Source: Chloroflexota bacterium | GTDB taxonomy: Bacteria; Chloroflexota; Limnocylindria; Limnocylindrales; CSP1-4 | Assembly: GCA_016200665.1 (NCBI GenBank) | Contig: JACQEG010000058.1 | Coordinates: forward strand, 1-32,904 | Reading direction: 5' to 3' | DNA: 32,904 nt | Shown here: piece by piece, positions 1,959 to 28,790 of the stretch | Layout of the letters: each line of letters begins with the position of its first letter | Position numbering within the stretch: the first letter of the stretch is position 1 | Made by a program: the position numbers and the translations under genes | Notes under the pieces: generated by a model | Database searches by the model: none | What the model saw: only the letters and a program-made list of their open reading frames with translations | What the model was told of the DNA's origin: nothing

Positions 1959-4340
1959 TCAGCCGGCCCCCGCGCCGGCATTGCCCGCGCCGGCATAGCC
2001 CGCCGCGGAGCCCGCGTCGCGCCACCCGAGCGCCCGGTCGAGGCCGCCATCCCAGGCGTGGCGCAGGTCGCGCACGGCGACATCGACCGAATCGGCGACG
2101 CGCGAGCCCCGTTCCTCGGCGGCGCCGGTCGCACCGGTGCCGGCGAGCTCGATGACGAGGCGCTCGCCACCGACCGTGCCCAGGAGCTCGACGGGCAGGT
2201 CCGCGGCCTCGGCCAGGCCGATCAGCGCCGGGACGTCGTCCGGCCGCGCGGACAGCACGATCCGGCTCGGGCTCTCGCCGAACAGGTCGACGGCGGGCGA
2301 GCTCGCGACGTGGAGGCGGAGGATCGCCCCGCGGCCGGACCAGATCGCGGCTTCGGCGAGGGCCACGCCGAGCCCGCCGGACGAGACGTCCTGCGCGGAA
2401 GCGACGAGCCCCCGCGCGATCGCATCCCGGACGAAGGCCTGGAGCCGGGCCTCGAGGTCGAGGTCGATCGCCGGCGCGCCGTCCTCCGGCGCGAGGCCGG
2501 CGAGCGTCGCGTACTCGCTGCCGCCGAGCCCCGGCGTGGCCCGCCCGACGAGCAGGACCGTGTCGCCATCGGCCCGGAAGGCCGGACCGGCACGCCGCTC
2601 GACGTCGTCGAGCAGCCCGACGACCCCGATCTCCGGCGTCGGCAGGATCCGGCTGCCCGGTGCCTCGTTGAACAGCGAGACGTTCCCGCCGGTGACCGGC
2701 ACGCCGAGGGCGCGGCAGGCATCGCCGAGGCCGCGGACGGCCTCCTGGAGCTGCCAGAAGGCGTCGGGCTTCGTCGGGTCGCCGAAGTTCAGGCAGTTCG
2801 TCACGCCGAGCGGGCGTGCGCCGGTGATGGACACGTTCCGGGTTGCCTCGGCGACGCTCATCGCGGCGCCGAGCCACGGGTCGAATGCCCCGATGGCGGC
2901 GTTGCCGTCGGTGGCGGCCACGAGCGCCCGCGTCGGCGTGCGCGGCGGCTGGCCGGCGCCGCCACCGTCGATCCGGACGATCGCCGCGCCGTGACCGGGC
3001 CGCACGACGGAGTTCGCCTGGACGGTCGAGTCGTACTGCTCGAAGACCGGGCGGCGGGAGGCGAGGTTCGGCGATCCCAGCAGCGCCAGCAGCACGGCGC
3101 CCGGGTCCATGCCGCGCTCGGGCAGCAGGGCACCGGCCTCGATCGGCGCGCCGGGGGCCGGAGCCTGTCGGCGGCGCTCCGGTGGCGCCGCCAGCCGGTC
3201 GTGGACGATCGCTTCCGACGTCAATGCCCGGGCCGGGATGCGCGCCAGCTCGCGACCCTCGCTCATGACCGTCACGTCGCCGTCGGCGGTGACCCGGCCG
3301 ATGACCGCGCGGGCAAGGCCCCAGCGCCCGCAGATCGCGGCGACCTCGACGTACCGCTCCGGCCGGACGATCGCGACCATCCGCTCCTGGCTCTCCGAGA
3401 TCATGACCTCGAACGGGGCCATGTCCGGCTCCCGCCGCGGGATCGCGTCGAGGTCGACCTCGATCCCGGTGCCGGCCCGGTCGGCGGTCTCGGACACGCC
3501 GCAGGTGATCCCCGCCGCGCCGAGGTCCTGGAGGCCCTCGACGAGACCGGCTTCGATGAGCTCGAGCGACGCCTCGATGAGAAGCTTCTCCGCGAACGGG
3601 TCGCCGACCTGGACGGATGGGCGCTTTGAGGGATCGTCATCCGCGAAGGTCGCGGAGGCGAGGACCGACGCGCCGCCGATGCCGTCGCGGCCGGTCGCGC
3701 TGCCGAACAGGATCACGAGATTGCCCGGGCCCGGGGCGGCCGCCCGGGTGAGGTGGCGCTCCTCGAGGATGCCGATCGCCATGACGTTCACGAGCGGGTT
3801 GCCGGCATACGACCGGTCGAACACCAGCTCGCCGCCGACGGTCGGCACGCCGACGCAGTTGCCATAGCCGCCGACGCCCCGAACGACGCCGTCGACGAGG
3901 TGCCGCGTTCGCGTATCGGTCGGATCGCCGAACCGAAGGGCATCGAGCACGGCCACCGGTCGGGCGCCCATCGCGAAGATGTCGCGGAGGATCCCGCCGA
4001 CCCCGGTGGCCGCGCCCTGGTACGGCTCGACGGCGCTCGGGTGGTTGTGCGACTCGATCTTGAACGCGACCGCCAGGCCCTCGCCGATCGACACCACGCC
4101 GGCGTTCTCGCCGGGTCCCGCCACGACCCCGGCGCCGTGCGTCGGCAGCGTCCGAAGCAGCGGCTTCGAGCTCTTGTAGGAGCAGTGCTCGCTCCACATG
4201 ACGCTGAACATCGCCAGCTCGAGGTCATTCGGGCGACGCCCAAGGCGCGCGACGATCGCGTCGAGCTCGTCGTCGGACAGCCCGAGCGCCCGGTGGAGCG
4301 CCGGCTGGGACGCCGGGCCGGTGCCGGGCTCGAGGGTCAT
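1959..4340 (-). CDS. purL: Phosphoribosylformylglycinamidine synthase subunit PurL
   Basis: This is the ATP-dependent synthetase subunit of FGAM synthase, which works with PurQ (glutaminase) and PurS. It is the small-type PurL: 793 aa, without a fused glutaminase. It has the [14 protein letters not shown] motif near the N-terminus, then [15 protein letters not shown] and [20 protein letters not shown], followed by the second AIR-synthase-like half ([11 protein letters not shown]). The C-terminus carries a Gly/Ala-rich tail beyond the usual end, so the protein is somewhat longer than the roughly 740 aa norm. The start could be ATG 4340, used here, or GTG 4346, which overlaps the purQ stop as GTGA and has GGAAG six bases upstream. 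The two differ by only two codons. Confidence 0.95.
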
Positions 4341-4342
4341 CG

Positions 4343-5092
4343 TCACGCGGCGCTTCCGGCAAGGCGCGGGGCGCGGCCCTCGCGCTCGGCGGCACCGGCG
4401 CTCTCGACGAGCGACCGGATGATCCCGAAGCCGTCGTCCGAGCCAAGCAGCGCCTCGACCGCGCACTCCGGGTGGGGCATCAGGCCGGCGACGTTGCCCG
4501 CGGCATTGATGACCCCGGCGATCGCCCGCAGGCTGCCGTTGGGATTGTCCGGGTCGCCCGCCTCGCCGGCCACCGAGCCGTCGTCATGGACGTATCGGAA
4601 CAGGACCTGGCCGTCGCGCTCCAGGGCGTCGAGCGTCACGTCGTCGGCGAAGTAGCAGCCTTCGCCGTGGGCGATCGGGACGCGCAGCGGCCGCCGCGGC
4701 CCGGCCAGCATCGTGAACGGCGTGTCGAACCGCTCGATGGCGATGTGGACGTCCCGGCCCAGGAACCGCAGGCCACGGTTGCGGAGCAGCGCGCCGGGCA
4801 CCAGGCCGGCCTCGGCGATGACCTGGAAGCCGTTGCAGATCCCGAGCACGAGCCCGTCCCGCTCGGCGAAGGCGCCGACCGCGCGCATGACCGGGCTGAA
4901 CCGGGCAATGACGCCGGCCCGAAGGTAGTCGCCGTAGGCGAAGCCGCCGGGGACGACGATCGCCGCCGATCCCTCGAGGCTCGCCGTCTCGTGCCACAGG
5001 GGCACGGCCTCGCCGCCCGCGAGCTCGATGGCCCGCAGCGTGTCCCGATCGCGATTGGATCCCGGGAAGATGACGACCCCGATCCGGGTCAC
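4343..5092 (-). CDS. purQ: Phosphoribosylformylglycinamidine synthase, glutaminase subunit PurQ
   Basis: PurQ is a class I glutamine amidotransferase that supplies ammonia to PurL for FGAM formation. The 249-aa product has the N-terminal [14 protein letters not shown] segment, the oxyanion [13 protein letters not shown] motif, the nucleophile elbow GICNGFQ (Cys86) and the catalytic His/Glu pair in MPHPE (His207, Glu209). The ATG at 5092 overlaps the purS stop by 4 bp (ATGA), and its own stop abuts the purL start. Length and motifs are normal. Confidence 0.96.
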
Positions 5093-14626: not shown

Positions 14627-14743
14627 TCCGCCACTCGTGGCCGGGCGTCACCCCGTAGCGGCCGCGTCGGAGTCTCCCCCGCGCTCGCGTCTGGGACCTT
14701 TGGCCCGACGCCGCAGGGGGACGTTGGAGGAGGAGCAGCGAGC

Positions 14744-16477
14744 ATGACCTTGTTCACCGCGCGATCGTCCCGGTTCGCGACCCTCGTCGCGGCCATGGCG
14801 ATCGTCGTCGGCGCGTGTTCGTCGCCGGCGAGCAACACCCCATCCTCACCGGCCGAGTCCGGCGGGGCCGGCACGCCGGCTCCGAGCACGTCGTCCTACG
14901 CCGCGGAGGCCTACCCGGCCGACGCCGATGCGCCCTGCGACGATGCCACGAAGAACTCGTCCGAGTTCAAGCGCATCAAGGCCGTCGACGAGTTCACGGT
15001 CGAGTTCGACCTGTGCGCGCCCGACGTGGCCTTCCTGTCCAAGATCGCGTTCGCCTCGAACGCCATCCAGGACTCGGATTGGCTGAAGGCCCACATGGCC
15101 GACAAGTCGATCCTGCGCAATGAGAACGGCACCGGCCCCTACACGCTGAAGAGCTGGGACGCCGGCAACCGCATGGACATGACGGCCTTCGCCGGCTACT
15201 GGGGCAACCAGGCGCGCACCCCGAACCTGGAGTTCCAGTGGAGCGACCAGGCAGTCAGCCGGACCCAGGCGCTCGTCGCCGGGACGGTCGACGGCATCGA
15301 CAACCCCGGTGCCGAGGACATCAAGACGATCCAGGGCCACGAGGACCTCAAGTTCAACCAGCGCGAGGGCCTCAGCACCCTGTACGTCGGGATGAACGTC
15401 CTCAAGGCCCCGTGGACCGACGAGAACGTCCGCAAGGCGATCGCCATGTCGATCGACCGACAGTCGCTCGTCGATCACTTCTATCCCCCGGGCTCCAGCG
15501 CCGCCGACTACTTCACCCCGTGCGCCATCCCGTTCGGGTGCGTCGGTGACAAGTGGTACGACTACGACCCGGCCGCGGCAAAGGCCCTCCTGACCCAGGC
15601 CGGCTTCCCGAATGGCTTCACGACGACCCTGTCGTTCCGTGCGGCCGTCCGTGGCTATCTCCCGGATCCGCCGGCCATCGCGACCGCGATCGCTGCGGAC
15701 CTCAAGAAGAACCTGGGCATCACCGCGACCCTGGACCTCCAGGAGTCGGGTGCGTTCCTCAGCAACGCCGCGAACGGCTCGATCGACGGCCTCTACCTCC
15801 TCGGTTGGGGCGCCGACTTCCCGGACGTGACGAACTTCCTCGACTACCACTTCGGCAGCGGCTCGGGTGCCAAGTTCGGCAAGCCGTTCGACGACATCGT
15901 GGCTGCCCTCAAGACGGGTGGCTCGTCGGCGTCGGACGCTGATCGGACCGCGGCGTACACGACCGCCAACAACGCCATCAAGGCTCACGTCCCGATGGCC
16001 CTGGTCGCCCACGGCGGCTCGGGTGATGCGTTCAAGGCCGACGTCGTCGGCTCGTACGCCTCGCCCATCGGCAGCGAGCTCTTCTACGTGATGTCGGCCG
16101 GCACTCGCGACACGCTGGTCTGGATGCAGAACGCCGAACCACTCAGCCTCTATTGCGGCGACGAGTCGGACGGCGAGACGCTCCGCGCCTGCGAGCAGAT
16201 GTTCGAGTCGCTCTACACGTACGAGATCGGTGGCACGAAGGCCATTCCGGCGCTCGCGACGGACTGCGCCCCCAATGCCGACCTGACCGTGTGGACCTGC
16301 CACCTCCGCCAGGGGGTCAAGTTCCATCAGTCCGGCACGCTCGATGCCAACGACGTCGTCGACAGCCTGGCGCTGCAGTGGGATACGAAGAACCCGCTGC
16401 ACGTCGGGAACACCGGCGACTTCGAGTACTTCCCCGGCCTGTTCGGCGGGAATCTCAACCCACCGCCGGCCTCGTGA
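14744..16477 (+). CDS. Dpp/Opp family substrate-binding lipoprotein with circularly permuted domain order
   Basis: This is a 577-aa SBP_bac_5-family lipoprotein that would capture peptides or similar ligands for the downstream importer. A signal peptide ends at a lipobox (VVGAC, Cys25), followed by a Ser/Pro/Ala linker. Residues 73-450 match the region that normally follows the first roughly 110 mature residues: KAVDEFTVEFDL, NGTGPYTLKSWDAG, YVGMNVLKAPWTDENVRKAI, DYDPAAAKALLTQAGFPNG and LLGWGADFPD. Residues 455-577 then match the usual N-terminal segment: DTLVWMQNAEP, LRACEQMFESLYTYE, WTCHLRQGVKFHQ, LDANDVVDSLALQWD and EYFPGLFGG. The order is therefore permuted, with the break in the loop after EYFPGLFGG. 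The second binding protein in this window has the ordinary order. Eight cysteines lie in the mature chain beyond Cys25. The start has a strong ribosome binding site. Confidence 0.88.
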   Translation: MTLFTARSSRFATLVAAMAIVVGACSSPASNTPSSPAESGGAGTPAPSTSSYAAEAYPADADAPCDDATKNSSEFKRIKAVDEFTVEFDLCAPDVAFLSKIAFASNAIQDSDWLKAHMADKSILRNENGTGPYTLKSWDAGNRMDMTAFAGYWGNQARTPNLEFQWSDQAVSRTQALVAGTVDGIDNPGAEDIKTIQGHEDLKFNQREGLSTLYVGMNVLKAPWTDENVRKAIAMSIDRQSLVDHFYPPGSSAADYFTPCAIPFGCVGDKWYDYDPAAAKALLTQAGFPNGFTTTLSFRAAVRGYLPDPPAIATAIAADLKKNLGITATLDLQESGAFLSNAANGSIDGLYLLGWGADFPDVTNFLDYHFGSGSGAKFGKPFDDIVAALKTGGSSASDADRTAAYTTANNAIKAHVPMALVAHGGSGDAFKADVVGSYASPIGSELFYVMSAGTRDTLVWMQNAEPLSLYCGDESDGETLRACEQMFESLYTYEIGGTKAIPALATDCAPNADLTVWTCHLRQGVKFHQSGTLDANDVVDSLALQWDTKNPLHVGNTGDFEYFPGLFGGNLNPPPAS

Positions 16478-16496: not shown

Positions 16497-16525
16497 GGGG
16501 CGCCGCGACCCGCGGCGCCCCTTTT
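16497..16525 (+). terminator. Intrinsic terminator between binding protein and permease genes
   Basis: A perfect 11-bp stem (GGGGCGCCGCG with CGCGGCGCCCC) with a 3-base loop is followed by TTTT. It lies between the SBP stop and the first permease start, so partial read-through would give more SBP than membrane components. Confidence 0.8.
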
Positions 16526-16569: not shown

Positions 16570-17715
16570 GTGACCCGGTTCGTCCTTCGGCGCCTGCTCC
16601 TCAGCATCCCGGTCCTGTTCGGGATCGTGTTCGTCGTCTTCACGACGGCCAGGCTCATCCCGGGAGACCCGTGTCGGGCGGTCCTCGGCGAGCGGGCGAC
16701 CGACGCCACCTGCAACGCCTTCATCAAGCGTTACGGCCTGGACCACGCCATCCTGCCGGGTCTGTATCGGCGCGGCGCGGACCTGGTGTTCGTCCCGGCG
16801 GACATTCCCGAGACCCTCATCGACAACCAGTTCCTGGGCTACCTCGGTGACGTGTCGCGCGGCGACCTCGGCCAGTCGATCAAGCAGTCGCGGCCGGTCA
16901 CCCTCATGCTCATCGAGCGCCTCCCGACGACGATCGAGCTGTCGCTCCTCGCGCTCCTCATCGCCGTCATCGTCGGCGTCCCCCTTGGCCTCATCTCGGG
17001 CTACCGCCGCAACTCGGCCGTCGATGTCGCGACGATGGCCTTCGCCAATCTCGGCGTCTCCATGCCCGTCTTCGTCCTGGGCCTGCTCCTGGCCTACGTC
17101 TTCGCGATCATCCTGAAGGGCACGCCGTTCTCGCTGCCACCGTCGGAGCGCCTGAGCGCGGGCGTCAGCGTCCTGCCGCTCGTGAAGGTCTGGGGCCTCC
17201 AGTCGGTCCAGGGGGCGCCGCGCGCGTTCCTGGACTTCATCTCGGGGATCTACACCTTCACCGCGCTCATCACGGGCCAGTGGGGCGCCTTCTGGGACGC
17301 GCTGCGGCACCTGATCCTGCCGGCGGTCGCCCTCGCCACGATCCCGCTCGCGATCGTCGCCCGGATCACCCGCTCGAGCCTGCTCGACGTGCTCGGCCAG
17401 GACTTCGTCCGGACGGCGCGGGCCAAGGGCCTGCGCGAGCGCTCGGTCGTCATCCGCCACGCGGCGCGCAACGCCCTGCTGCCGGTGGTGACGGTCATCG
17501 GCCTCCAGCTCGGCGGCCTGCTGTCCGGGGCGATCCTCACGGAGACGACGTTCAACCTCGCGGGCGTCGGCCGCTCGATCTTCGAGGCGATCACGGGTCG
17601 TGACTTCGCGGTCATCCAGGGCTTTACCCTGGTCATCGCGGTCTTCTACGTCGCCGTGAACCTGATCGTCGACGTGTCCTACAGCTACCTCGACCCGCGG
17701 GTGCGCCTGCGATGA
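16570..17715 (+). CDS. DppB/OppB-type ABC transporter permease
   Basis: This is one of the two membrane subunits of a peptide-type importer. The N-terminus TRFVLRRLLLSIPVLFGIVF with the first helix and the following LIPGDPCRAVLG loop are typical of the DppB family. Further helices are predicted around residues 120-143, 152-182, 243-265, 305-325 and 347-368. The cytoplasmic EAA loop that docks on the ATPases is visible (DFVRTARAKGLRERSVV, residues 279-295, then HAARNALLPV). At 381 aa it is longer than usual, owing to an insertion after the first helix and a segment at 184-240. GTG 16570 has GAGGGGG twelve bases upstream. The stop overlaps the next permease by ATGA. Confidence 0.92.
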   Translation: MTRFVLRRLLLSIPVLFGIVFVVFTTARLIPGDPCRAVLGERATDATCNAFIKRYGLDHAILPGLYRRGADLVFVPADIPETLIDNQFLGYLGDVSRGDLGQSIKQSRPVTLMLIERLPTTIELSLLALLIAVIVGVPLGLISGYRRNSAVDVATMAFANLGVSMPVFVLGLLLAYVFAIILKGTPFSLPPSERLSAGVSVLPLVKVWGLQSVQGAPRAFLDFISGIYTFTALITGQWGAFWDALRHLILPAVALATIPLAIVARITRSSLLDVLGQDFVRTARAKGLRERSVVIRHAARNALLPVVTVIGLQLGGLLSGAILTETTFNLAGVGRSIFEAITGRDFAVIQGFTLVIAVFYVAVNLIVDVSYSYLDPRVRLR

Positions 17716-18800
17716 GCTCCGAACCGCTGATCAAGGGCGGCCTCGCCGGGGGCCACGGCGGTGCCGGCGGCCCCGGCGGCCCCGGCGCGCCGCCCGGGCC
17801 AGTCGCCACCGCCGATTCGCTGCTGACCGCTCGCCCGGCGAGCCTGTGGCGGGACACCCTCGCCAGCATCCTCCGGCAGCGCTCGGCCGACGTCGGCCTG
17901 TTCATCCTCAGCTTCCTCGTGGTCGTCGGGCTGCTCGCCGGCCCGAGCGTGACGACGACGAGCAAGGGCCTCGAGGACTCCTGGCCGGCGTACGGCACGG
18001 ACCCCGGCGGCATCCACCTCGCTCCGTTCGACCCGACGCTGCCGCTCCTCGGCGAGGCGGGCCAGGAGGGCCTCGCCCGGTTCGCGCCCCCGTGCATCCA
18101 CGCGCTCGGCTGCCCGGCGGCGCAGCCGGAGCACATCTTCGGCGTCGACGGCAACTTCCGAGACCTGTTCAGCCGGGTCGTCTACGGCACCCGTGTGTCG
18201 GTCCCGTCGGGGTTCATCGCGATCGGGATCGCGATCCTCATCGGCACGATGATCGGCGCCGTCGCGGGCTACATCGGCGGCTGGCTCGACAACCTGCTCA
18301 TGCGGATCATGGACGTGCTCCTCGCCTTCCCGTCGTTCCTGCTCGCGATCATCATCACGGTCGCGCTCGGCCGGACGCTCAACAACGCGCTGCTGGCGGT
18401 CGGCATCGTCGGGATCCCGGTCTATGCCCGGATCGTCCGCGCCTCGGTCCTGTCGATTCGCGAGAACGAGTTCGTCACGGCATCGCGGGCCCTCGGCGAA
18501 TCGAGCCTCGGGATCCTCGTCCGGCGGGTCATGCCGAACTCACTGACGCCGCTCATCGTCCAGGGCACGCTCGGCATCGGCGGCGCAGTCCTCGAGATCG
18601 CGGGCCTGGCGTTCATCGGCGTGACCGGCGACATCAGCGTCCCCGAGTGGGGCTCGATGATCAGCCTCGTCCGCGGCCAGCTCTTCAACTCGCCGCACGT
18701 CGTGCTGCTGCCGGGCTTCGCGATCACCCTCACCGTGCTCGGCTTCAACCTCTTGGGCGATGGCCTCCGCGACGCCCTCGACCCGAGGCTCAACCGATGA
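17712..18800 (+). CDS. DppC/OppC-type ABC transporter permease
   Basis: This is the second membrane subunit, 362 aa. An unusual Gly/Pro/Ala-rich cytoplasmic extension (residues 9-31) precedes the first helix at about 61-78. The core has GTRVSVPSGFIAIGIAILIG, AGYIGGWLDNLLMRIMDVLL with the DppC-typical LAFPSFLLAI, and the EAA loop EFVTASRALGESSLGILVRR followed by VMPNSLTPLIVQ. The C-terminus LGDGLRDALDPRL is diagnostic for the family. Start and stop both overlap neighbours by 4 bp. Confidence 0.92.
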   Translation: MSSEPLIKGGLAGGHGGAGGPGGPGAPPGPVATADSLLTARPASLWRDTLASILRQRSADVGLFILSFLVVVGLLAGPSVTTTSKGLEDSWPAYGTDPGGIHLAPFDPTLPLLGEAGQEGLARFAPPCIHALGCPAAQPEHIFGVDGNFRDLFSRVVYGTRVSVPSGFIAIGIAILIGTMIGAVAGYIGGWLDNLLMRIMDVLLAFPSFLLAIIITVALGRTLNNALLAVGIVGIPVYARIVRASVLSIRENEFVTASRALGESSLGILVRRVMPNSLTPLIVQGTLGIGGAVLEIAGLAFIGVTGDISVPEWGSMISLVRGQLFNSPHVVLLPGFAITLTVLGFNLLGDGLRDALDPRLNR

Positions 18801-19960
18801 CCCCCTCCGGGCCGAGCGGGGACGCGACGGTGGCCGAGCTCGTGCCGACGACTGCGACCCGCCGGCCGCGCCGCGCGCCGAGCGCGCCCGGACCGCTCCT
18901 CGACGTCCGGGGCCTGAAGACCTCGTTCCACACTCGCGACGGAATCGTCCGGGCCGTCGACGGCATCGACTTCCACGTCGACCGAGGCGAGATCCTCGGC
19001 CTCGTCGGCGAATCGGGCTGCGGCAAGAGCGTGACGTCGATGTCGATCATGCGGCTCATCGCCAAGCCGGGGGCGATCGAGGCCGGCCAGGTCATGTTCG
19101 ACGGCAAGGACCTGCTGACGTTCTCGCCCGACCAGATGCGGGCCATCCGGGGCGACCGGATCAGCATGATCTTCCAGCAGCCCCAGAGCTCCCTGAACCC
19201 GGTCTGGGACGTGGGGCGCCAGATCGGCGAGGTCCTCGAGATCCACCGGAACATGAAGCGCAAGGCCGCCCGTGACCGGGCGCTCGAGCTCCTCCGGATG
19301 GTCGGCATCCCTGATCCCCAGCGGCGCCTCGCCTCGTTCCCGCACGAGCTGTCGGGCGGCATGGCCCAGCGCGTCATGATCGCGATGGCGCTCGCCTGCG
19401 AGCCGGAGCTGCTCATCGCCGACGAGCCCACGACCGCCCTCGACGTGACGATCCAGGCCCAGATCCTCGACCTCATCCGGGAGCTCCGGGAGCAGACCGG
19501 GACCGCGGTCATCCTGATCACCCACGACCTCGGCGTCGTCGCCGAGATGTGCGACCGGGTCGCGGTCATGTACGCCGGCGAGATCGTCGAGCAGGCCACG
19601 ACGGTGACGCTGTTCCGCGAGCCGCTCCATCCGTACACCCGCGGCCTCATCGACTCGATCCCGGTCGTCGGTGACGTTCGCGACCGCCTCGCGGTCATCC
19701 CCGGCAACGTCCCCAACCTCATCGACCTGCCGGAGGGCTGCCGCTTCGCGCCGCGCTGCGTGACCCGCGAGGTCGAGCACGTCCCCTACTCAACCGAGCT
19801 CCACCCGTCACTGTTCGAGGCGAGCCGCAATCACGACGTCCGCTGCTGGCTCTATCACGACCGCGAGGGCCGGACGATCCGATCGGAGGCGCCGGGGTCG
19901 TTCAAGGCCGCCGTCGTCAGCGAGGCCGAGGCCCTCGCCAAGCTCGGAGGCGACGCGTGA
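18797..19960 (+). CDS. DppD/OppD-type ABC transporter ATPase
   Basis: This 387-aa ATPase energises import. It has Walker [10 protein letters not shown] (71-79), Q-loop IFQQP, signature LSGGMAQR (185-192), Walker B LLIADEP (205-211) and the switch His in THD (243). The C-terminal oligopeptide-transporter domain carries the CRFAPRC motif. In this family four cysteines there can hold a [4Fe-4S] cluster in D-type subunits. Here Cys315, Cys321 and Cys350 are present but the third position is His328. The ATG at 18797 overlaps the permease stop; the first 30 residues are a disordered-looking extension. The stop overlaps the next ATPase as GTGA. Confidence 0.92.
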
Positions 19961-21069
19961 CCGCTGCCTCGGGCGGGTCCACCGCTGCCTCGGGCGGGTC
20001 CACCGCTGCCACCGCGGCGCGCGACGCCGGTCCGTACGCGCCGGCCGCCGTCGGCGAGCCACTCGTCGAGGTCGAGAACCTCGTCAAGCACTTCCCGATC
20101 CGTGGCGGCGTCCTCCAGCGGACGGTCAACGTCGTCCAGGCCGTCGACGGCGTGACCTTCACGATCCGGCGGGGCGAGACGCTCGGCCTGGTCGGCGAGT
20201 CGGGCTGCGGCAAGACGACCGTCGGGCGGGTCCTCCTGCGCCTGATCGATCCGACGTCGGGCACGATCCGCTTCGACGGCAAGGACATCACGACGCTCGG
20301 TGGCTCGGCGCTGCGGCCATACCGGCGTCGGATGCAGATCATCTTCCAGGACCCCTACGCCAGCCTCGATCCCCGGACGCCGATCGGCGACAGCATCGGC
20401 GAGGGCCTCCGGATCCACAAGGTCGGGAGCGGCGCCCAGCGACGCGAGAAGGTCCGCAAGATGATGGACCTCGTCGGGCTCCAGCCGTATCTCGCCCGTC
20501 GCTATCCGCACGAGTTCTCCGGCGGCCAGCGCCAGCGCATCGGGATCGCCAGGGCGCTCGTCCTCGAGCCCGACCTCGTCGTCTGCGACGAGCCGGTGTC
20601 CGCCCTCGACGTCTCCATCCAGGCCCAGGTCCTGAACCTGCTCAAGCAGCTCCAGGGCGAGCTCGGCCTCACCTACCTGTTCATCGCCCACAACATGGGC
20701 GTCGTGGAGCACATCAGCGACCGGGTGGCCGTGATGTACCTCGGCCGGATCGCGGAGGTGGCCGACCGGCGCGACCTCTTCCGGGACCCACAGCACCCCT
20801 ACACGCAGGCCCTGCTGTCCGCGATCCCGGTCCCGGATCCGGAGCTCCGCCGCCAGCGGATCATCCTCAAGGGCGACGTGCCCTCGCCGGTCAACCCGCC
20901 CTCGGGCTGCCGCTTCCACCCGCGCTGCCAGCTGCGGGCCGAGCTCGGCAGCCCGGAGATCTGCGCCGCGGCCGACCCGGAGCTCCTCCAGATCACGGGC
21001 ACGAGCCACGCGGTCGCCTGCCACTTCCGGGGCGAGGCCGGCAAGACGACGCCGCGACCCGCGGCCTAG
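19957..21069 (+). CDS. DppF/OppF-type ABC transporter ATPase
   Basis: This is the second ATPase of the plus-strand importer, 370 aa. It has Walker [10 protein letters not shown] (80-88), [13 protein letters not shown], signature FSGGQRQR (187-194) and Walker B LVVCDEP (207-213), followed by the [16 protein letters not shown] and SGCRFHPRC motifs of the C-terminal domain. The GTG start at 19957 overlaps the previous stop (GTGA). The first 20 residues are encoded by a 21-bp tandem repeat giving TAASGGS twice. It ends the operon and converges on the lipoprotein gene. Confidence 0.92.
19960..20010 (+). repeat. 21-bp tandem repeat at the start of the F-type ATPase gene
   Basis: Two perfect 21-bp copies (19960-19980, 19981-20001) and a 9-bp partial third copy encode [17 protein letters not shown]. 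The repeat is in frame and lies before the conserved ATPase fold, so copy-number change would be tolerated. Confidence 0.85.
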
Positions 21070-21135: not shown

Positions 21136-21729
21136 TCAGCGCAGGTAGTTCTTCTGCATGAAGATGGCCTGCTGGGCCTTGTCGCTCAGGTCGGCGCGGA
21201 CGGCCCCGTAGGTCTCGTTCCCGGCGGCGAACTGCTCGAAGCCCGCGGTCACGCCGGCGGCATTGCCCGCCGTCAGCGAATCGTGGATCTGCTGGAGCCC
21301 ATCGATCATCTGCTGATAGGCATTGGCGAGGGCGTCCCCGAGGGCCTTCGTCTCGGGATAGGCCTGGAGCTTCGGGACGTTCTTCTGGGCGCCGGTGAGG
21401 AACGTCAGGCCGTCGGTCGTGACCTGGAGCAGACCCGCCATGTCCGCCGTGTCCACCGTCGTCTGGAGGTCCGACGCGAGCTTGGCGAAGCTCGAGTCCG
21501 CCGCTCCGAGGGCGATCGTCGCGGACACGACGCTGCCCGGCCAGATCGTCGGCTTCGGGGTCTCCCCCGATGCCAGGAAGGGCGTGGTCGGCGTCGAGGT
21601 CGGCGTGGTCGTGAGGTTCGAGCACCCGACGAGGAGCGCGGCTAGGAGAGCCACCGACAGGGCGAGCGGCCTGAGCGATCGCCGGTGGCGGCGCTCGGCC
21701 GCTGCCACGATCGAGGAATCCATCGTCAT
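21136..21729 (-). CDS. Small lipoprotein of unknown function, last gene of the second transporter operon
   Basis: This is a 197-aa predicted lipoprotein. A charged N-region is followed by a hydrophobic helix and a lipobox (LLVGC, Cys36), then a Thr/Pro/Ser linker. The mature part (residues 75-197) is rich in Ala, Gln, Asp and Leu and looks all-helical. I do not recognise the family. The ATG at 21729 overlaps the stop of the upstream ATPase by 4 bp, so it is translated as part of the transporter operon; a second ATG two codons later is also possible. The position suggests an accessory role at the membrane, but no function can be assigned. Confidence 0.75.
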   Translation of the reverse strand: MTMDSSIVAAAERRHRRSLRPLALSVALLAALLVGCSNLTTTPTSTPTTPFLASGETPKPTIWPGSVVSATIALGAADSSFAKLASDLQTTVDTADMAGLLQVTTDGLTFLTGAQKNVPKLQAYPETKALGDALANAYQQMIDGLQQIHDSLTAGNAAGVTAGFEQFAAGNETYGAVRADLSDKAQQAIFMQKNYLR

Positions 21730-23576
21730 TCCACCGCGGCGGCCGTCTCCACGACGTCCTGCGTCTCGACGGTCTCGGCCACCGCGGACTCGCTGATCTG
21801 CTCGGCGAAGTGGCAGGCGGCCCGATGGTGGGCGTCGCCGGTCATCGGCCGGAGCGCCGGGTCCTCGGTTGCGCAGATCTCCGGGTTGCCGAGCCGCTCG
21901 CGGAGCCAGCAGCGCGTGTGGAAGCGACAGCCCGACGGCGGCGCGGCCGGCGACGGCACGTCGCCCTTCAGGACGAGCCGGCTGCGGCGCCGGCGCGGAT
22001 CGGCGATCGGGATCGCGGACAGCAGCGCGACCGTGTACGGGTGGCGGGGGTTGCGGTAGAGCTCGTCGACGGTCCCGATCTCGACGATCTTGCCGAGGTA
22101 CATGACCGCGATGCGATCGCTGAAGTACTCGACGACCGACAGGTTGTGGCTGATGAAGAGGTAGGTCAGGTTGAAGTCACGCTTCAGGTCGAGCAGGAGG
22201 TTGAGGACCTGGCTCTGGATCGAGACGTCGAGCGCCGAGACCGGCTCGTCGCAGACGATGAAGTCCGGCGACAGGGCGAGCGCCCGGGCAACGCCGATGC
22301 GCTGGCGCTGGCCGCCGGAGAACTCGTGGGGGTAGCGGCGGCTGTAGTCGCGGCGCAGGCCGACGACCTCGAGCGCATCGCCGGTCCGCTTGTCGCGCTC
22401 CTTGCGATTGGTCACGCCCTGGGCGAGGAGGCCCTCGCCGATGATGTCGCTGACGGGCATCCGCGGGTTCAGCGACCCGAACGGGTCCTGGAAGATGATC
22501 TGCATCCGGCGGCGGAGCGGTCGCATGTCGTCCGGGTCGACGTCCGCCAGCTCGTAGCCGTCGAAGACGACGTGGCCGTCCGTCGGCGGCGTCAGCTGCA
22601 GGAGCGTCCGGCCGAGGGTCGTCTTGCCGCAGCCCGACTCGCCGACGACGCTGAACACCTCGCCCGGGTAGACGTCGAAGTCGACGCCGTCGACGGCGTA
22701 GATCGTGCCGACGCGGCGACGGAGGATGCCGCCGAGGATCGGGAAGTGCTTCTTGAGCCCGCGGACGGACACGAGCGGATCGACCGCCCCGGTCGCGATG
22801 GCGACGGGCGAGGGCAGGCCAAGCGCCGGTGCCGTGTCACCGCTGCCCGACGCGCTGACCGGCGTGATCTCCGCGAAGCCACCGGTCTCGGCCTCGATCT
22901 CCTGGGCCGTCTTGATCGGGTGACGGGTTTCGGCGGCGAGGAAGAAGGAGCGCTCACGGATGAGGCCCCAGAGCAGGGGCACGCCGAACGCGAGGAACAG
23001 CAGGGCCAGGGTGATCAGGCCGAAGGCGAGGTTGCCGTCGATCGTGCCGCTCGCCGTCGTGGCTGCCCCGGTTGCGCCGCTGGCAAGGGGTGACGCCGCC
23101 GCGGCCGACCCAGCCGGAGCCGCCGTCGCGACGGCGCCGGTGGCAGCAGCCCCGGACGCGGCCGCACCGGACGCGGCCGCACCGGAGGCCCCGGGCGCCG
23201 CGCTGCCGGCTGCCGTTCCGCCCATCGCGCCCGGCACGAGGGCGAGATACGACATCACGACCGCGCCGACGACGAGCACGAAGCCGATGACGAGCGACAG
23301 CCCGAACGCCCACAGCTTGCGGTCGCGGTAGCCTCGCGGGGCGATGTAGGCGAGCGCCGCGACGATGTAGGCCGGCCAGATCTCGACGAGCAGGTCGACA
23401 CCGCCCTTCACCCGGAACAGCACCGACACGACGAGCAGCAGCCCGACGGTCACCAGGACCAGGGCGAGGATGCCGTACAGGATGGCCCTCGCCCGAAGGA
23501 TCCCGCGAGGTGGCCGCTGCCGGAGCGCGCCCTTGATCTTCGGGGCCGCAAGGCCGTGGTCAACCGTCGCGCTCAT
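21726..23576 (-). CDS. DppF/OppF-type ATPase fused to an N-terminal four-helix membrane domain
   Basis: This 616-aa protein is almost twice the length of a usual OppF. Residues 31-54, 61-79, 88-113 and 182-206 are strongly hydrophobic and probably cross the membrane. Between the third and fourth helices lies a loop of about 65 residues made almost only of Ala, Gly, Ser and Thr. From residue 266 it is an ordinary F-type ATPase: Walker [10 protein letters not shown] (312-320), IIFQDPFGSLNPR, signature FSGGQRQR (419-426), Walker B FIVCDEP (439-445) and the SGCRFHTRC C-terminal motif. The reading frame is continuous and the ATG at 23576 overlaps the preceding ATPase stop, so the fusion looks genuine. 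The membrane part is not recognisable to me as a named domain. Confidence 0.88.
   Translation of the reverse strand: MSATVDHGLAAPKIKGALRQRPPRGILRARAILYGILALVLVTVGLLLVVSVLFRVKGGVDLLVEIWPAYIVAALAYIAPRGYRDRKLWAFGLSLVIGFVLVVGAVVMSYLALVPGAMGGTAAGSAAPGASGAAASGAAASGAAATGAVATAAPAGSAAAASPLASGATGAATTASGTIDGNLAFGLITLALLFLAFGVPLLWGLIRERSFFLAAETRHPIKTAQEIEAETGGFAEITPVSASGSGDTAPALGLPSPVAIATGAVDPLVSVRGLKKHFPILGGILRRRVGTIYAVDGVDFDVYPGEVFSVVGESGCGKTTLGRTLLQLTPPTDGHVVFDGYELADVDPDDMRPLRRRMQIIFQDPFGSLNPRMPVSDIIGEGLLAQGVTNRKERDKRTGDALEVVGLRRDYSRRYPHEFSGGQRQRIGVARALALSPDFIVCDEPVSALDVSIQSQVLNLLLDLKRDFNLTYLFISHNLSVVEYFSDRIAVMYLGKIVEIGTVDELYRNPRHPYTVALLSAIPIADPRRRRSRLVLKGDVPSPAAPPSGCRFHTRCWLRERLGNPEICATEDPALRPMTGDAHHRAACHFAEQISESAVAETVETQDVVETAAAVE
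23152..23181. repeat. 15-bp tandem duplication in the Ala-rich loop coding region
   Basis: CCGGACGCGGCCGCA occurs twice in tandem (23152-23166, 23167-23181), encoding part of the alternating Ala/Gly/Ser loop of the membrane-fused ATPase. It is in frame and probably arose by slippage. Confidence 0.7.
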
Positions 23577-24694
23577 GCATCTCCTGGGGTTGCGTCATGG
23601 ACGGGCAGCTCGCGGCCGGTGGCGAGGGCCCGGCGATGGGCCTCCAGGGCGGCCGGCCAGCGGCCGGCGCCCTCCGGCGTGTGCAGGTGGCACCGTGCGC
23701 GGCGGCCGGATGGACCGGAGAGGTACAGCTCCGGCGGCACCGTCCGGCAGCGCTCCCAGTGGTACGGGCAGCGCGGCTCGAACCGGCAGGCCGGCGGCAG
23801 GTTGAACGGCGAGGGTACGACGCCCTTGATCGCGGAGAGCCGGCCACCGCGCTTCTCGACGCTTGGGATCGACTCGAGGAGGCCCATCGTGTACGGCGCG
23901 CGGGGCTCGACGAGGACCTCTTCCACGGTCCCCTGCTCGACGACCTCGCCGGTGTACATGACGATGACGTTGTCGACCATCTCGGCGACGACCCCCAGGT
24001 CGTGGGTGATCAGGACGAGTGCCGAGTCGGTCCGTTGCTGGATCGTCTTGAGGAGCTCGAGGATCTGGGCCTGGATCGTCACGTCGAGCGCCGTCGTGGG
24101 CTCGTCGGCGATGAGGAGCTTGGGCTCGCACGACAGGGCCATCGCGATCATGACCCGCTGGCGCATGCCGCCGGACATCTCGTGGGGGTACTGCTTGACC
24201 CGCCGCTCGGGATTGGGGATGCCGACGAGCGTGAGGCTCTCGATCGCCCGGTCCCACGCCGCCTTCTTGCCGACCTTCTTGTGCAGCGCCACCTGCTCGG
24301 CGATCTGGTCGCCGACGGTGAAGACCGGGTTGAGGCTGGTGAGCGGCTCCTGGAAGATCATCGCCATCTCGTTGCCGCGAATCCGGCGCATCTGGTCCAT
24401 CGGCAGGCCGAGGATCTCGCGGCCGTCGAACCAGACCTCCGACGCGGGATCGATCTGGGCCGGCGGGATGTCGAGCAGCCGCATGATCGTCATCGCCGTG
24501 ACGCTCTTGCCGGAGCCCGACTCACCGACGATGCCGAGGGTCTGGCCGCGGCGCAGCGAGAACGACACGCCGTCCACGGCCGGCACGACGCCGTCGAGGA
24601 CCTTGAAGTAGGTCTTGAGGTTCCGGACGTCCAGCAGGATGTCGCGCTCCGGGGGCGCGCCGCGCGGTGCGTCGGCGCTGATCACCTCGGTCAT
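23573..24694 (-). CDS. DppD/OppD-type ABC transporter ATPase
   Basis: This 373-aa ATPase belongs to the minus-strand importer. It has Walker A GESGSGKSV (57-65), IFQEPLTSLNP, signature MSGGMRQR (173-180) and Walker B LLIADEP (193-199), followed by [11 protein letters not shown]. The C-terminal region has all four cysteines of the D-type cluster motif (CRFEPRC, then WERC and RARC). This contrasts with the plus-strand paralogue, in which one is replaced by His. An Arg/Ala-rich tail of about 40 residues follows. It overlaps its neighbours by ATGA at both ends. Confidence 0.92.
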   Translation of the reverse strand: MTEVISADAPRGAPPERDILLDVRNLKTYFKVLDGVVPAVDGVSFSLRRGQTLGIVGESGSGKSVTAMTIMRLLDIPPAQIDPASEVWFDGREILGLPMDQMRRIRGNEMAMIFQEPLTSLNPVFTVGDQIAEQVALHKKVGKKAAWDRAIESLTLVGIPNPERRVKQYPHEMSGGMRQRVMIAMALSCEPKLLIADEPTTALDVTIQAQILELLKTIQQRTDSALVLITHDLGVVAEMVDNVIVMYTGEVVEQGTVEEVLVEPRAPYTMGLLESIPSVEKRGGRLSAIKGVVPSPFNLPPACRFEPRCPYHWERCRTVPPELYLSGPSGRRARCHLHTPEGAGRWPAALEAHRRALATGRELPVHDATPGDA

Positions 24695-25707
24695 GCGCGG
24701 CTTCGAGGATCGAAGGCGTCCCGGAGCCCGTCACCCACGAAGTTGACGGCGAGGACGGTGAGGATGATCGCGACGCCCGGGAACAATGGCCACCACCAGT
24801 TGCCAACGAGGATGAAGGTCAGCGCGTTCGAGAGGATGTTGCCCCACGTCGGCACGGCCGGGTTGACCCCGAAGCCGAGGAAGCTGATGAACGCCTCGCC
24901 GATGATGTTGCCGCCGATGATCAGCGACGCCACCACGACGATGGGGCTGAGGGCGTTCGGCAGGATGTGCCGGAAGATGATCCGCCGGTCGCGAACCCCG
25001 ACCGCCCGGGCCGCCTCCACGAACTCGCGCTCGCGGATGGACAGGAAGAGGCTCCGCACGAGGCGGCTGACGCCCATCCAGCCGAACAACCCGAAGATCA
25101 TGATGATCGCCCAGACGTTGTCCTTCGAGTTCTGGAAGAACCGCGCGACGACGAGGATGACGAACAGCAGCGGCAGGCTCAGCAGGACGTCGACGATCCG
25201 CATGAGCAGGTTGTCGATGAAGCCGCCGATGTAGCCGGCGATCGCGCCGACGATCGTGCCGATGATCACGCCGATCGCCATGCTCGTGAAGCCGAGGAAC
25301 AGCGACACGCGAGCGCCGTTGAGGACGAGCGTCAGCACGTCGCGCTGGAGGCCGCCGGTCTCGCCCATCGGGTGGACGAGCCCGAAGGCGGTGCAGACGT
25401 GCTTCGCGTTGTCGTACACGGCGCAGAACGGTGGGCGGCCGCCGTAGACGTTCTGGTCGACCCGGGGGATGTCGTCGAAGGCGTATGGCAGGAAGATCGG
25501 GCCGACGATCGCGGCGAGGATGAGGACCGTCATGATCCCCAGGCCGATCAGGGCGAGCTTGTGCTGCCGGAACTTGCGCCACGCCAGCTCCCACTGGCTC
25601 AGGGACTGGAGGCTGACCTCGTAGTCCGATGCGGATGGGGCTGGAGCGGCGCCGAGGTCGTCGTGAAGGGCGCCCGGGCCCGTGGGCGGCTGCAGTGGCT
25701 GCGTCAT
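24691..25707 (-). CDS. DppC/OppC-type ABC transporter permease
   Basis: This 338-aa permease has the DppC-type cytoplasmic N-terminus (SQWELAWRKFRQHKLALIGL), the first helix at about 50-72 and a large extracytoplasmic loop with two cysteines. Then follow NGARVSLFLGFTSMAIGVII, AGYIGGFIDNLLMRIVDVLL and the EAA loop EFVEAARAVGVRDRRIIFRH with ILPNALSPIVV. It ends GDGLRDAFDPR. AGGAG overlapping the upstream permease stop is a possible ribosome binding site, 11-12 bases before the ATG. It is co-transcribed with the flanking genes. Confidence 0.92.
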   Translation of the reverse strand: MTQPLQPPTGPGALHDDLGAAPAPSASDYEVSLQSLSQWELAWRKFRQHKLALIGLGIMTVLILAAIVGPIFLPYAFDDIPRVDQNVYGGRPPFCAVYDNAKHVCTAFGLVHPMGETGGLQRDVLTLVLNGARVSLFLGFTSMAIGVIIGTIVGAIAGYIGGFIDNLLMRIVDVLLSLPLLFVILVVARFFQNSKDNVWAIIMIFGLFGWMGVSRLVRSLFLSIREREFVEAARAVGVRDRRIIFRHILPNALSPIVVVASLIIGGNIIGEAFISFLGFGVNPAVPTWGNILSNALTFILVGNWWWPLFPGVAIILTVLAVNFVGDGLRDAFDPRSRA

Positions 25708-25723
25708 CGGGGGCGAGGCGCTC

Positions 25724-26818
25724 CTAGTACTTGATGCGCGGGTCGACGACGGCGTACAGGACGTCGGCGAGGAGGTTCGCGAGGACGACGAGCAGGCTCG
25801 AGATCAGGAACACGCCCATGAGGATCGTGTAGTCGAAGACCCGGATCGATTCGATCGTCAGGCGGCCGATGCCCGGCCAGCTGAAGATCGATTCGGTGAC
25901 GAGCGCTCCCGAGAAGAGGAACGGGATCTCGAGGCCGATGTTCGTCACGACCGGCAGGAGCGCGTTGCGCAGCGCGTGGCGGAACGTCACGGTGCGACCC
26001 GGCAGGCCCTTGGCGCGGGCGGTCCGGACGTAATCCTGGCTGAGCGCCTCGAGCATCGAGGCCCGCACGAACCGGCTGTCACCGGCGATGTTCACCACGA
26101 CGAGGGTGATCACCGGCATGACCAGGTGCTGGGCGATGTCGAGGATCGCCGGGATCGGGTTCTGGCCGAAGTACACCCAGTAGTTGTCGGTCCCGAAGGC
26201 CGGCGAGAGGCGGGCGTTGACCATGCCGCTGATCGGGAGCCACTTGAGGCTCACACCGAAGATCAGGATCAGCATGATGCCCAGCCAGAAGGTCGGCATG
26301 GCAAAGCCGATGTAGGAGAAGACCGTCGCCGCCTGGTCGAAGAACGAGTAGCGCTTCACCGCGGCGAGGACGCCCAGGACGATGGCGGCGCTGATCCACA
26401 GCAGCAGCGCGGTCCCGGCGAGGATGAGCGTGGGCAGGGCGGCATTGCCGATCCGCCGAGCGACCGATTCGCCCGAGTCGAGGGAGAACCCGAGGTCGCC
26501 GTGCAGGACGCCGTTGGTGGCGCCGGAGATGCCGGTCGGGAGGATGTTCGGCCAACCCGTCGGCCCGAGGAACTGGCCGAGGCCCTGGCCGTCCGGGTTC
26601 AGGAGGCCGACCCATCGGCCGTACTGGATCGGGATGGGCTGGTCCAGGCCCCACGACTTCTTGAAGGCTTCCTTCTGGGCCAGCGTGATCTTGGGGTTGT
26701 TCGCGAACCGTTCCACTGGCCCGCCGGGGGCGGACAGCATGACGGCATAGGTGACGATGGTGATGCCGATGACGACGGGGATCGCCTGGATGAGCCGGCG
26801 GATGAGGTACTTCGTCAT
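25724..26818 (-). CDS. DppB/OppB-type ABC transporter permease
   Basis: This 364-aa permease begins TKYLIRRLIQAIPVVIGITI, the typical first helix of DppB, followed by an extracytoplasmic loop. Other marks are GDLGFSLDSGESVARRI, the GFAMPTFWLGIMLILIFG helix, the EAA loop DYVRTARAKGLPGRTVTFRH with ALRNALLPVV, and the C-terminal LLADVLYAVVDPRI. The ribosome binding site AAGGAAGG lies six bases before the ATG at 26818. It is separated from the binding-protein gene by a long stem-loop. Confidence 0.93.
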   Translation of the reverse strand: MTKYLIRRLIQAIPVVIGITIVTYAVMLSAPGGPVERFANNPKITLAQKEAFKKSWGLDQPIPIQYGRWVGLLNPDGQGLGQFLGPTGWPNILPTGISGATNGVLHGDLGFSLDSGESVARRIGNAALPTLILAGTALLLWISAAIVLGVLAAVKRYSFFDQAATVFSYIGFAMPTFWLGIMLILIFGVSLKWLPISGMVNARLSPAFGTDNYWVYFGQNPIPAILDIAQHLVMPVITLVVVNIAGDSRFVRASMLEALSQDYVRTARAKGLPGRTVTFRHALRNALLPVVTNIGLEIPFLFSGALVTESIFSWPGIGRLTIESIRVFDYTILMGVFLISSLLVVLANLLADVLYAVVDPRIKY

Positions 26819-26870
26819 CGGACGCCTTCCTTGTCTGAGCGCCTGGGATGGCTGGCGAGGCTGGGAGTTG

Positions 26871-26905
26871 CGGTCGGGGCGCCCGCGATGCGGGCGCCCC
26901 GACCG
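26871..26905 (-). terminator. 16-bp perfect stem-loop between binding protein and permease genes
   Basis: CGGTCGGGGCGCCCGC and its exact reverse complement enclose a 3-base loop. No T-run follows on the minus strand, so it may be a partial terminator or an mRNA 3'-end stabiliser for the binding-protein message. It occupies the same relative position as the terminator in the plus-strand operon. Confidence 0.6.
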
Positions 26906-26945
26906 TGTCTTGCGTCTCTAGGACGCCATGAGGCGGAGCCTCAGG

Positions 26946-28784
26946 CTAGCCCTTGACGTACCAGTCGACCGCGTTCCACGTCGGGCCGGCGGAGGTCGGG
27001 TTCTGGAAGTAGTTCCCGAGCTTGCTGCTGACGAGGTCGACGTTCTTCCGGTAGTAGAGCGGGATCTCGACCGTCTTGTCGACGTAGATCTTCTGGAAGG
27101 TCGCCATCGCGTCCTTGATCACAGAGAAGTCGACGCTGCCCTTGACCGTGTCGAGCGCCTTGTCAAGATCCGGATCGTTGACGCTGGCGTCGTTGCCGCC
27201 CTTGGGCTCGGTCAGGGTGCTGTAGTAGGTCGAGTAGCTCGAGTTCGGGTCCAGCGAGGAGCTGAACGCGTGCTCGGCCAGGTCGAAGTTGCTGTGCGAC
27301 AGCGCGCAAGGCGTGTCCTTGGTGCCGTCGTTGTACTCGACGAAGATGTCGGACGGGGAGACGCCGTTGACGACGCTCTCGATGCCGACGTCCTTGAGCC
27401 AGCTCGAGACGAGCGCCTCAGTGTCGAGCCGGACCTGGCGGGTCGTCGTGCACAGCTCGATCTTGGCCCGGAGGCCGTTCTTCGAGCGGATGCCGTCGGA
27501 GCCCTTGACCCAGCCGGCCGCATCCAGGATCTGGTTGGCCTTGGCCGGGTCGAACGTGGCGGGGGTCTGGTCGCTGAAGTACCACGCCTGGGGCGCGATG
27601 TTCGTGTTGGCGACCTGGGCGGTCCCACCGAGGAGCTTGGTGTTGATCTCGTTCTTGTCGATCGCGTAGGAGACGGCCTGGCGCATCGCCGGGTCGCTCA
27701 TCGGGCAGCCCGTGCCGCGGTCGGAGACCGCCGGGTTGCGCGAGCAGCCACCGACATTGCTGGCGGCATCACCGGGTCCCGCCGCCCAGTTCGGGCGAAG
27801 GAACTCGTAGAGCAGCGCCGGCGCGGCGGCGATGTTGTCCTTGAGGCCCTGCTGCTCCAGCTTCGGGATGTCCGAGTCCTGGAGGTCGGTCGCGAAGTCG
27901 ACCTCACCGGCCGCGAAGCCGGCGATCATCGCATCCGCGTCGCCGTACCAGTGCCAGATCAGGGTGTCGAGGTTGGCCGGCTGGTTCGACTTGAAGCCCT
28001 TGTACTGGTCGTTCCGGACGAGCCGCAGCTCCTGGCCCGAGGTGACGGACTGGAACTTGAACGCGCCAGAGGTCGGGACCTTCGGCATGTCGGCGGGCTG
28101 CATGCCCTTGCCCTTGACCTGGTCGGCCATGGGGATGGGCTCGAAGTAGTGCTTCGGCAGCGGAGTCCCGAGGACGTAGTACGCCTCGTAGATCTCCTTG
28201 TAGTGGTAGACGATCGTCGTCGGATCCGGGCAGTCGACGCCGGTGATGCTGTCGTAGCCGACGGTCCCACCGAACAGGCCGGTGTTCGCCGGATCCATGT
28301 TCCAGGACCAGGTGTACTTGAAGTCATCACAGGTGAGGGCCTGGCCGTCGGACCACTTGAGGTCCGCCTTGAGCTTCCAGGTGACGGTCATCGCGTCGCC
28401 GTTGTCGCCCGGGACCTTCACGTCGCCGTTGGCGGTCGTCGCCGGCTCGGCGGCGAGGTCCGGCAGGTACTTGTAGTCGCTCGTCGGCACGACGAGGGAC
28501 GCCCAGACCGCGGAGTTGACGTTCGCCTCGGTGACCTGGCCCGAGTAGAACGGGTTGAACTGGTTGGCTTCCTGCCAGTCTCCGATGAGGATCTGGCCGC
28601 CCTTGGTCCCAGCTGCCGGGGCGTACGCCGAGTCGAAGATGTTCTCGGGGGCGGTGGTCGGCGGGGCCACGGTCTCCGTCGATTGCGAGGCGGTGTTCCC
28701 CGACGGCGTCGTCGTCGCGGGGGAGCTACACGCCGCGACCACGATCGCAGCGGTCGCTACCAACGCCTTGAGCGGTTTCTGCAT
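26946..28784 (-). CDS. Dpp/Opp family substrate-binding lipoprotein, conventional order
   Basis: This 612-aa lipoprotein captures ligand for the minus-strand importer. The lipobox VVAAC puts the lipidated Cys at position 19. The mature chain has the normal family order: GGQILIGDWQEANQFNPFYS near the start, WKLKADLKWSDGQALTCDDF, VPTSGAFKFQSV, MRQAVSYAIDKNEI, FDPAKANQILDAAGWVKG, and the closing lobe segment ending WNAVDWYVKG. ATG 28784 is chosen because GGAGG lies about seven bases upstream; the adjacent TTG at 28787 is closer to it than is usual. A good sigma-70-type promoter lies about 120 bases upstream. The ligand cannot be told from sequence. Confidence 0.92.
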   Translation of the reverse strand: MQKPLKALVATAAIVVAACSSPATTTPSGNTASQSTETVAPPTTAPENIFDSAYAPAAGTKGGQILIGDWQEANQFNPFYSGQVTEANVNSAVWASLVVPTSDYKYLPDLAAEPATTANGDVKVPGDNGDAMTVTWKLKADLKWSDGQALTCDDFKYTWSWNMDPANTGLFGGTVGYDSITGVDCPDPTTIVYHYKEIYEAYYVLGTPLPKHYFEPIPMADQVKGKGMQPADMPKVPTSGAFKFQSVTSGQELRLVRNDQYKGFKSNQPANLDTLIWHWYGDADAMIAGFAAGEVDFATDLQDSDIPKLEQQGLKDNIAAAPALLYEFLRPNWAAGPGDAASNVGGCSRNPAVSDRGTGCPMSDPAMRQAVSYAIDKNEINTKLLGGTAQVANTNIAPQAWYFSDQTPATFDPAKANQILDAAGWVKGSDGIRSKNGLRAKIELCTTTRQVRLDTEALVSSWLKDVGIESVVNGVSPSDIFVEYNDGTKDTPCALSHSNFDLAEHAFSSSLDPNSSYSTYYSTLTEPKGGNDASVNDPDLDKALDTVKGSVDFSVIKDAMATFQKIYVDKTVEIPLYYRKNVDLVSSKLGNYFQNPTSAGPTWNAVDWYVKG

Positions 28785-28790
28785 CAACTG

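Follow-up and report, generated by a model that had tools for sequence, protein, structure and literature searches.

A circularly permuted SBP_bac_5 lipoprotein encoded with a Dpp-type importer in Chloroflexota

Introduction

The E. coli dipeptide-binding protein DppA (1dpe/1dpp, 8z1y; cluster C, SBP_bac_5) binds the carboxylate of its dipeptide through R383 and the amino group through D436, and a charge-reversed DppA mutant shows no dipeptide binding (PMC12136057). A second system of relevance is the Treponema pallidum lipoprotein Tp0684 (TpMglB-2), which binds glucose and is permuted; the authors of that study proposed a 'Cluster Bc' for it and discussed the permutation as a possible adaptation to tethering (PMC4990184). 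Natural permuted binding proteins are rarely documented, the sole natural case in the literature that we searched being this sugar-binding protein; the same searches, with most subscription journals outside their range, returned nothing relevant on permuted OppA, DppA, oligopeptide-binding or SBP_bac_5 proteins. Here we describe a gene for a permuted cluster C protein in a 32,904-nucleotide stretch of DNA from a Chloroflexota bacterium (the whole stretch is referred to as the window), together with its family and with similar permutations in other lineages.

Results

Order of the segments in the 577-aa protein

The gene and the parts of its product are as follows.

14744-16477, + strand: circularly permuted SBP_bac_5 (DppA-like) lipoprotein, 577 aa (ORF list, profile and structure-chain matches, rotation scan)
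14726-14735, + strand: purine-rich ribosome-binding site GGAGGAGGAG (GGAGGAGG at 14726), read from the sequence, as is the next feature
14744-14818, + strand: lipoprotein signal peptide with lipobox VGAC; lipidation predicted at Cys25
14819-14920, + strand: low-complexity linker, residues 26-59, disorder predicted for most of it (segments with pLDDT <50 end at residue 43)
14921-16099, + strand: segment B, residues 60-452, corresponding to DppA from mature residue ~125 to the C-terminus (DppA match; Pfam positions 61-365)
16106-16465, + strand: segment A, residues 455-574, corresponding to the first ~120 residues of mature DppA (DppA match; Pfam positions 2-55)
15650-15652, + strand: Arg303, aligned with DppA R383, which contacts the dipeptide carboxylate (PMC12136057)
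15815-15817, + strand: Asp358, aligned with DppA D436, which contacts the dipeptide amino group (PMC12136057)

In phmmer searches against the PDB, residues 76-447 of the protein match residues 125-501 of DppA (1dpe; i-Evalue 3.3e-36) and residues 485-566 match residues 31-118 of the same chain (3.7e-8), in swapped order relative to the first match. Against the precursor chain 8z1y, residues 456-566 match 29-146 (1.3e-8); overall, segment A matches the start of DppA over residues 456-571. The Pfam profile PF00496 is split in the same way, with its positions 61-365 at 14915-15865 followed by positions 2-55 at 16241-16402, and the remaining five SBP_bac_5 genes of the genome have one-piece matches. 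The protein scores well within the family (227 bits against a curated cut-off of 32.4) and departs from the ordinary N-to-C order of the SBP_bac_5 fold. When the mature sequence was turned through all offsets and aligned globally at each of them with four ordinary relatives, the best alignment started at residue 451-456 and scored 427-548, as opposed to 323-427 in the native order; rotation brought no gain to an ordinary protein used as a control.

These results confirm that the 577-aa protein is a circularly permuted SBP_bac_5 lipoprotein and uphold the sequence-only reading, which had described the later part of the SBP_bac_5 protein as coming first and its start as coming last. The swapped DppA matches, the split PF00496 match and the rotation scan all bear this out; the break point lies where that reading had placed it, in the loop after EYF-x-G and before V-D-D-N-T-V-x-F, and the window's other binding protein (26946-28787, - strand) has the ordinary order, as it had also claimed. 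In the permutation-aware alignment that it had recommended, rotation at ~455 is best against every ordinary relative tried. Most family members end no more than 4 residues past segment A, which places the new C-terminus exactly at the break loop, and a lipobox-like motif is found in 120 of the 128 homologues with a readable N-terminus.

The rotated order would have arisen by tandem duplication followed by fusion and then trimming; no duplication intermediate (A-B-A) was seen among the homologues. Tandem arrays of the type from which a permutation could arise do exist, as on a Phyllobacterium plasmid with four tandem ordinary peptide-binding protein genes (L146, 779-7476). Such arrays are also compatible with domain shuffling, in which the original N-terminal part was lost and segment A was acquired from another binding-protein gene, as A and B could then derive from two neighboring paralogues, and the authors of the Tp0684 study raise the same possibility for their permuted sugar-binding protein (PMC4990184). 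We regard shuffling as unlikely here because A and B both match the same relative, DppA, and its outcome would in any case be identical, namely a fold whose parts are unchanged and whose order is rotated.

Importer operon, ligand residues and fused relatives

The circularly permuted gene is followed directly by genes for the DppA partners DppB, DppC, DppD and DppF.

16497-16525, + strand: GC-rich inverted repeat, then TTTT, separating the binding-protein gene from dppB; putative attenuator-like terminator (sequence reading)
16570-17715, + strand: DppB-like permease with scoop residues E41/R42 (alignment to E. coli DppB 8z1v)
17712-18800, + strand: DppC-like permease (ORF; orthologues at the same place in other loci)
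18797-19960, + strand: DppD-like ATPase (ORF, start at 18797)
19957-21069, + strand: DppF-like ATPase (ORF; comparison of loci)

The repeat and T-run at 16497-16525 would favor expression of the receptor above that of the permease. Among the 66 loci with more than 6 kb downstream, the arrangement binding protein-DppB-DppC occurs in 60, and in 22 DppD-DppF are present too. The window's DppB has an extra stretch past the scoop (residues 59-85). Adjoining the first operon on the opposite strand is a second complete peptide importer operon (21726-28787, - strand), with the ordinary-order binding protein, whose start is listed as TTG, and an OppF-type ATPase ORF (21726-23576, - strand) that carries an N-terminal extension of ~250 residues with several hydrophobic segments.

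Both residues that contact the dipeptide in DppA have equivalents in the window protein, R303 for R383 and D358 for D436, and these are found in 66/71 and 65/71 sequences, respectively. The protein is thus very probably a permuted cluster C receptor of dipeptide type, serving the Dpp importer encoded directly downstream, although the loss of the ligand residues in a few divergent members means that specificity may vary.

Several relatives carry additional domains. The permuted domain stands behind a complete SBP_bac_3 (amino-acid type) domain in at least 10 members and behind a Peripla_BP_6 domain in L018 and L024, and L020 and L034 contain in addition a CxxCH stretch with a match to a haem-binding family. 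The loci with SBP_bac_3 or Peripla_BP_6 fusions, each encoding one lipoprotein, are L018 (4624-7503), L024 (1-2328), L020 (4669-7518), L025, L034, L048, L059, L064, L077, L079, L083 and L169. A model of the fused protein L059, built from a 10-row alignment, was poor (pLDDT 69, pTM 0.45). The extra amino-acid-binding type domains of some relatives, the haem-type stretch in two of them and the absence of R303/D358 from a few members would fit a protein that has kept the fold but has a role outside dipeptide import, receiving or sensing some other ligand. We consider this improbable, as DppB and DppC lie directly downstream in 60 of the 66 loci and as the window keeps both the ligand pair and the scoop pair of the permease.

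Structure prediction and cysteines

The AlphaFold2 model of the permuted protein (71 homologues) has a mean pLDDT of 91 and a pTM of 0.87 and is confident everywhere except for the signal peptide and linker. The top Foldseek matches are dipeptide-binding proteins, with an rmsd of 2.1-2.2 Å over ~390 columns, which correspond to the order-keeping B part. The confident model and this close B-part match to DppA would be compatible with a bilobed peptide-binding fold. It is highly improbable that the last 120 residues form an independent domain next to an already complete protein in residues 73-450: we found nothing in favor of this, a sequential Foldseek match limited to B being what a permuted chain requires, and A, which like B is predicted with high confidence, is homologous to exactly the ~120 residues of lobe 1 that B lacks, as B starts at DppA residue 125.

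Four cysteines, C65, C91, C471 and C483, are conserved without exception in the family (with one column of alignment slack allowed), and the pairs C260/C266 and C508/C519 are each jointly present or jointly absent in every sequence. The family cysteines are absent from ordinary relatives except in isolated cases at 471 and 483. They look like disulfides acquired with or after the rotation, and a putative C65-C91 disulfide could staple the new N-terminus.

Distribution and phylogeny of the permuted family

The window protein has more than 120 distinct homologues with its order and break point. Scanning a GTDB-based collection and searching the taxonomic family of the window yielded about 100 distinct relatives, the intact ones all being B-A; across the data, the order is B-A in every intact family homologue and A-B in the ordinary relatives in which both segments were found. 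In at least 37 of 301 Chloroflexota genomes a match extends across the junction (>=487 bits), a lower bound since the scan scored at most four candidates per genome, and the best ordinary protein in the same scan reached 295 bits, with B alone aligned. Among the carriers are two single-contig assemblies as well as Bellilinea caldifistulae GOMI-1 and Thermanaerothrix daxensis GNS-1, both of them cultured strains, and family members are also present in genomes labelled Actinomycetota or Acidimicrobiia. We found no family-specific model in Pfam or NCBIfam, and the best 60 PDB matches listed for the family profile include no permuted chain, only B-part matches past residue 100, in line with the ordinary order.

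For the phylogenetic analysis, segments were rearranged to canonical order. The 24 permuted rows of the main family form one clade with support of 100/100, so that the homologue search and tree suggested in the sequence-only reading point to a common break point in a single, strongly supported group. Its sister is a group of ordinary Chloroflexota SBP_bac_5 proteins (e.g. L148, L151, L155) with support of 90/89, and the two together are supported at 100/99. At one locus (L007, 2040-5667) there is a tandem pair of diverged permuted binding-protein genes, and at L109-L112 a fast-evolving permuted subgroup of the window's family adjoins a binding-protein gene of ordinary order that is encoded on the other strand.

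An assembly artefact, two ordinary tandem genes collapsed into one ORF, has practically no likelihood: while the window's assembly consists of 175 contigs at 82% completeness and tandem peptide-binding genes are known elsewhere (such as the four in a row on the Phyllobacterium plasmid), the permutation in the window cannot be one because the same order and break point recur across unrelated projects, in more than 120 distinct homologues, some of which come from cultured strains or single-contig assemblies. For the main family, assembly collapse is refuted by these independent genomes, in agreement with the initial judgement that it was unlikely.

Separate permutations in other lineages

Permuted proteins also occur outside of the main family. 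In one plasmid record, which bears the label Subdoligranulum variabile, a complete Opp operon includes a permuted binding protein (L143, 596 aa) with its break in the loop used by the main family; the closest relatives found for it are ordinary Acetoanaerobium (47%) and Ilyobacter (45%) proteins, and a collection of viral contigs yielded no relative of this Clostridia protein. Two Actinomycetota proteins, L166 (genome G384) and L195 (G689), are again permuted at the same loop. The Clostridia case is known from one record, and L166 and L195 are each known from a single genome, which leaves an assembly fault possible in those single cases. A different break is seen in L191 (Actinomycetota G483; 3207-5039, - strand), in which the chain starts at the entry to lobe 2 and OppB/OppC-like genes lie downstream, and a contig-edge fragment, L199 (G701; 1498-1749, - strand), has the same C-terminus as L191 followed by an OppB-like gene.

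In the tree, all of these proteins are surrounded by ordinary ones; five changes are needed to account for the permuted and ordinary labels, and at least four are required by well-supported branches. L166 and L195 may represent a pair of gains, or a gain plus a reversal. A single origin of all permuted proteins was rejected by an AU test on the first tree, which included some long branches (p-AU 0.0013). Similar permutations have separate origins in a Clostridia Opp operon and in Actinomycetota, in one case with a different break point. Taken together, it is likely that cluster C binding proteins have been permuted repeatedly, in at least four events (Chloroflexota Dpp; Clostridia Opp; Actinomycetota Opp at the same loop; Actinomycetota Opp at the lobe 2 entry), that the EYF-x-G loop is preferred, and that the moved N-terminus serves as a port for the lipid anchor and for fusions with additional binding domains.

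Discussion

We propose that the chain was opened in lobe 1, in the loop that leads from the EYF-x-G helix to the next V-D-D-x-T-V strand, and that the former N- and C-termini were joined, so that the lipid anchor and linker would enter at that loop. Once folded, the protein would enclose its dipeptide in the manner of DppA, the carboxylate being bound by Arg303 and the amino group by Asp358; it would then dock on DppB/DppC, where the DppB scoop (E41/R42) would help to displace the ligand, and import would be powered by DppD/DppF. Fold closure, dipeptide specificity and docking are the parts of this reading that we infer.

A large family with one break point, along with separate repeats of the event, poses the question of why this fold tolerates or favors rotation. 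The family also allows one to ask whether membrane tethering drives rotation, as proposed for Tp0684, and what effect a relocated anchor has on docking to the importer, and it is a source of natural break points for permuted peptide-binding sensors.

Compared with E. coli DppA, the window protein has homology over both segments, the ligand residues, the DppBCDF partners and the DppB scoop E41/R42 in common, but its N-terminal 120 residues are at the C-terminus, it is a lipoprotein and it has family-specific cysteines; against the NCBIfam equivalog model for DppA (NF043070) it scores 176 bits where the cut-off is 1005, and thus falls outside that model. The ordinary Chloroflexota SBP_bac_5 proteins of the sister group (L148, L151, L155) differ in having the A-B order and, isolated cases at 471/483 aside, none of the family cysteines. 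With Tp0684, the family shares a natural permutation of the binding protein of an ABC importer, in which the N-terminal part of lobe 1 has moved to the C-terminus of a tethered lipoprotein (PMC4990184). Tp0684 has a type I, cluster B sugar-binding fold, rather than a cluster C peptide-binding one, and represents a separate event in another family. Of the features that define 'Cluster Bc', the window protein has the circular permutation but not the type I/cluster B fold, being an SBP_bac_5 protein with DppA-like structural matches. The window family is the cluster C counterpart of Tp0684, its closest precedent.
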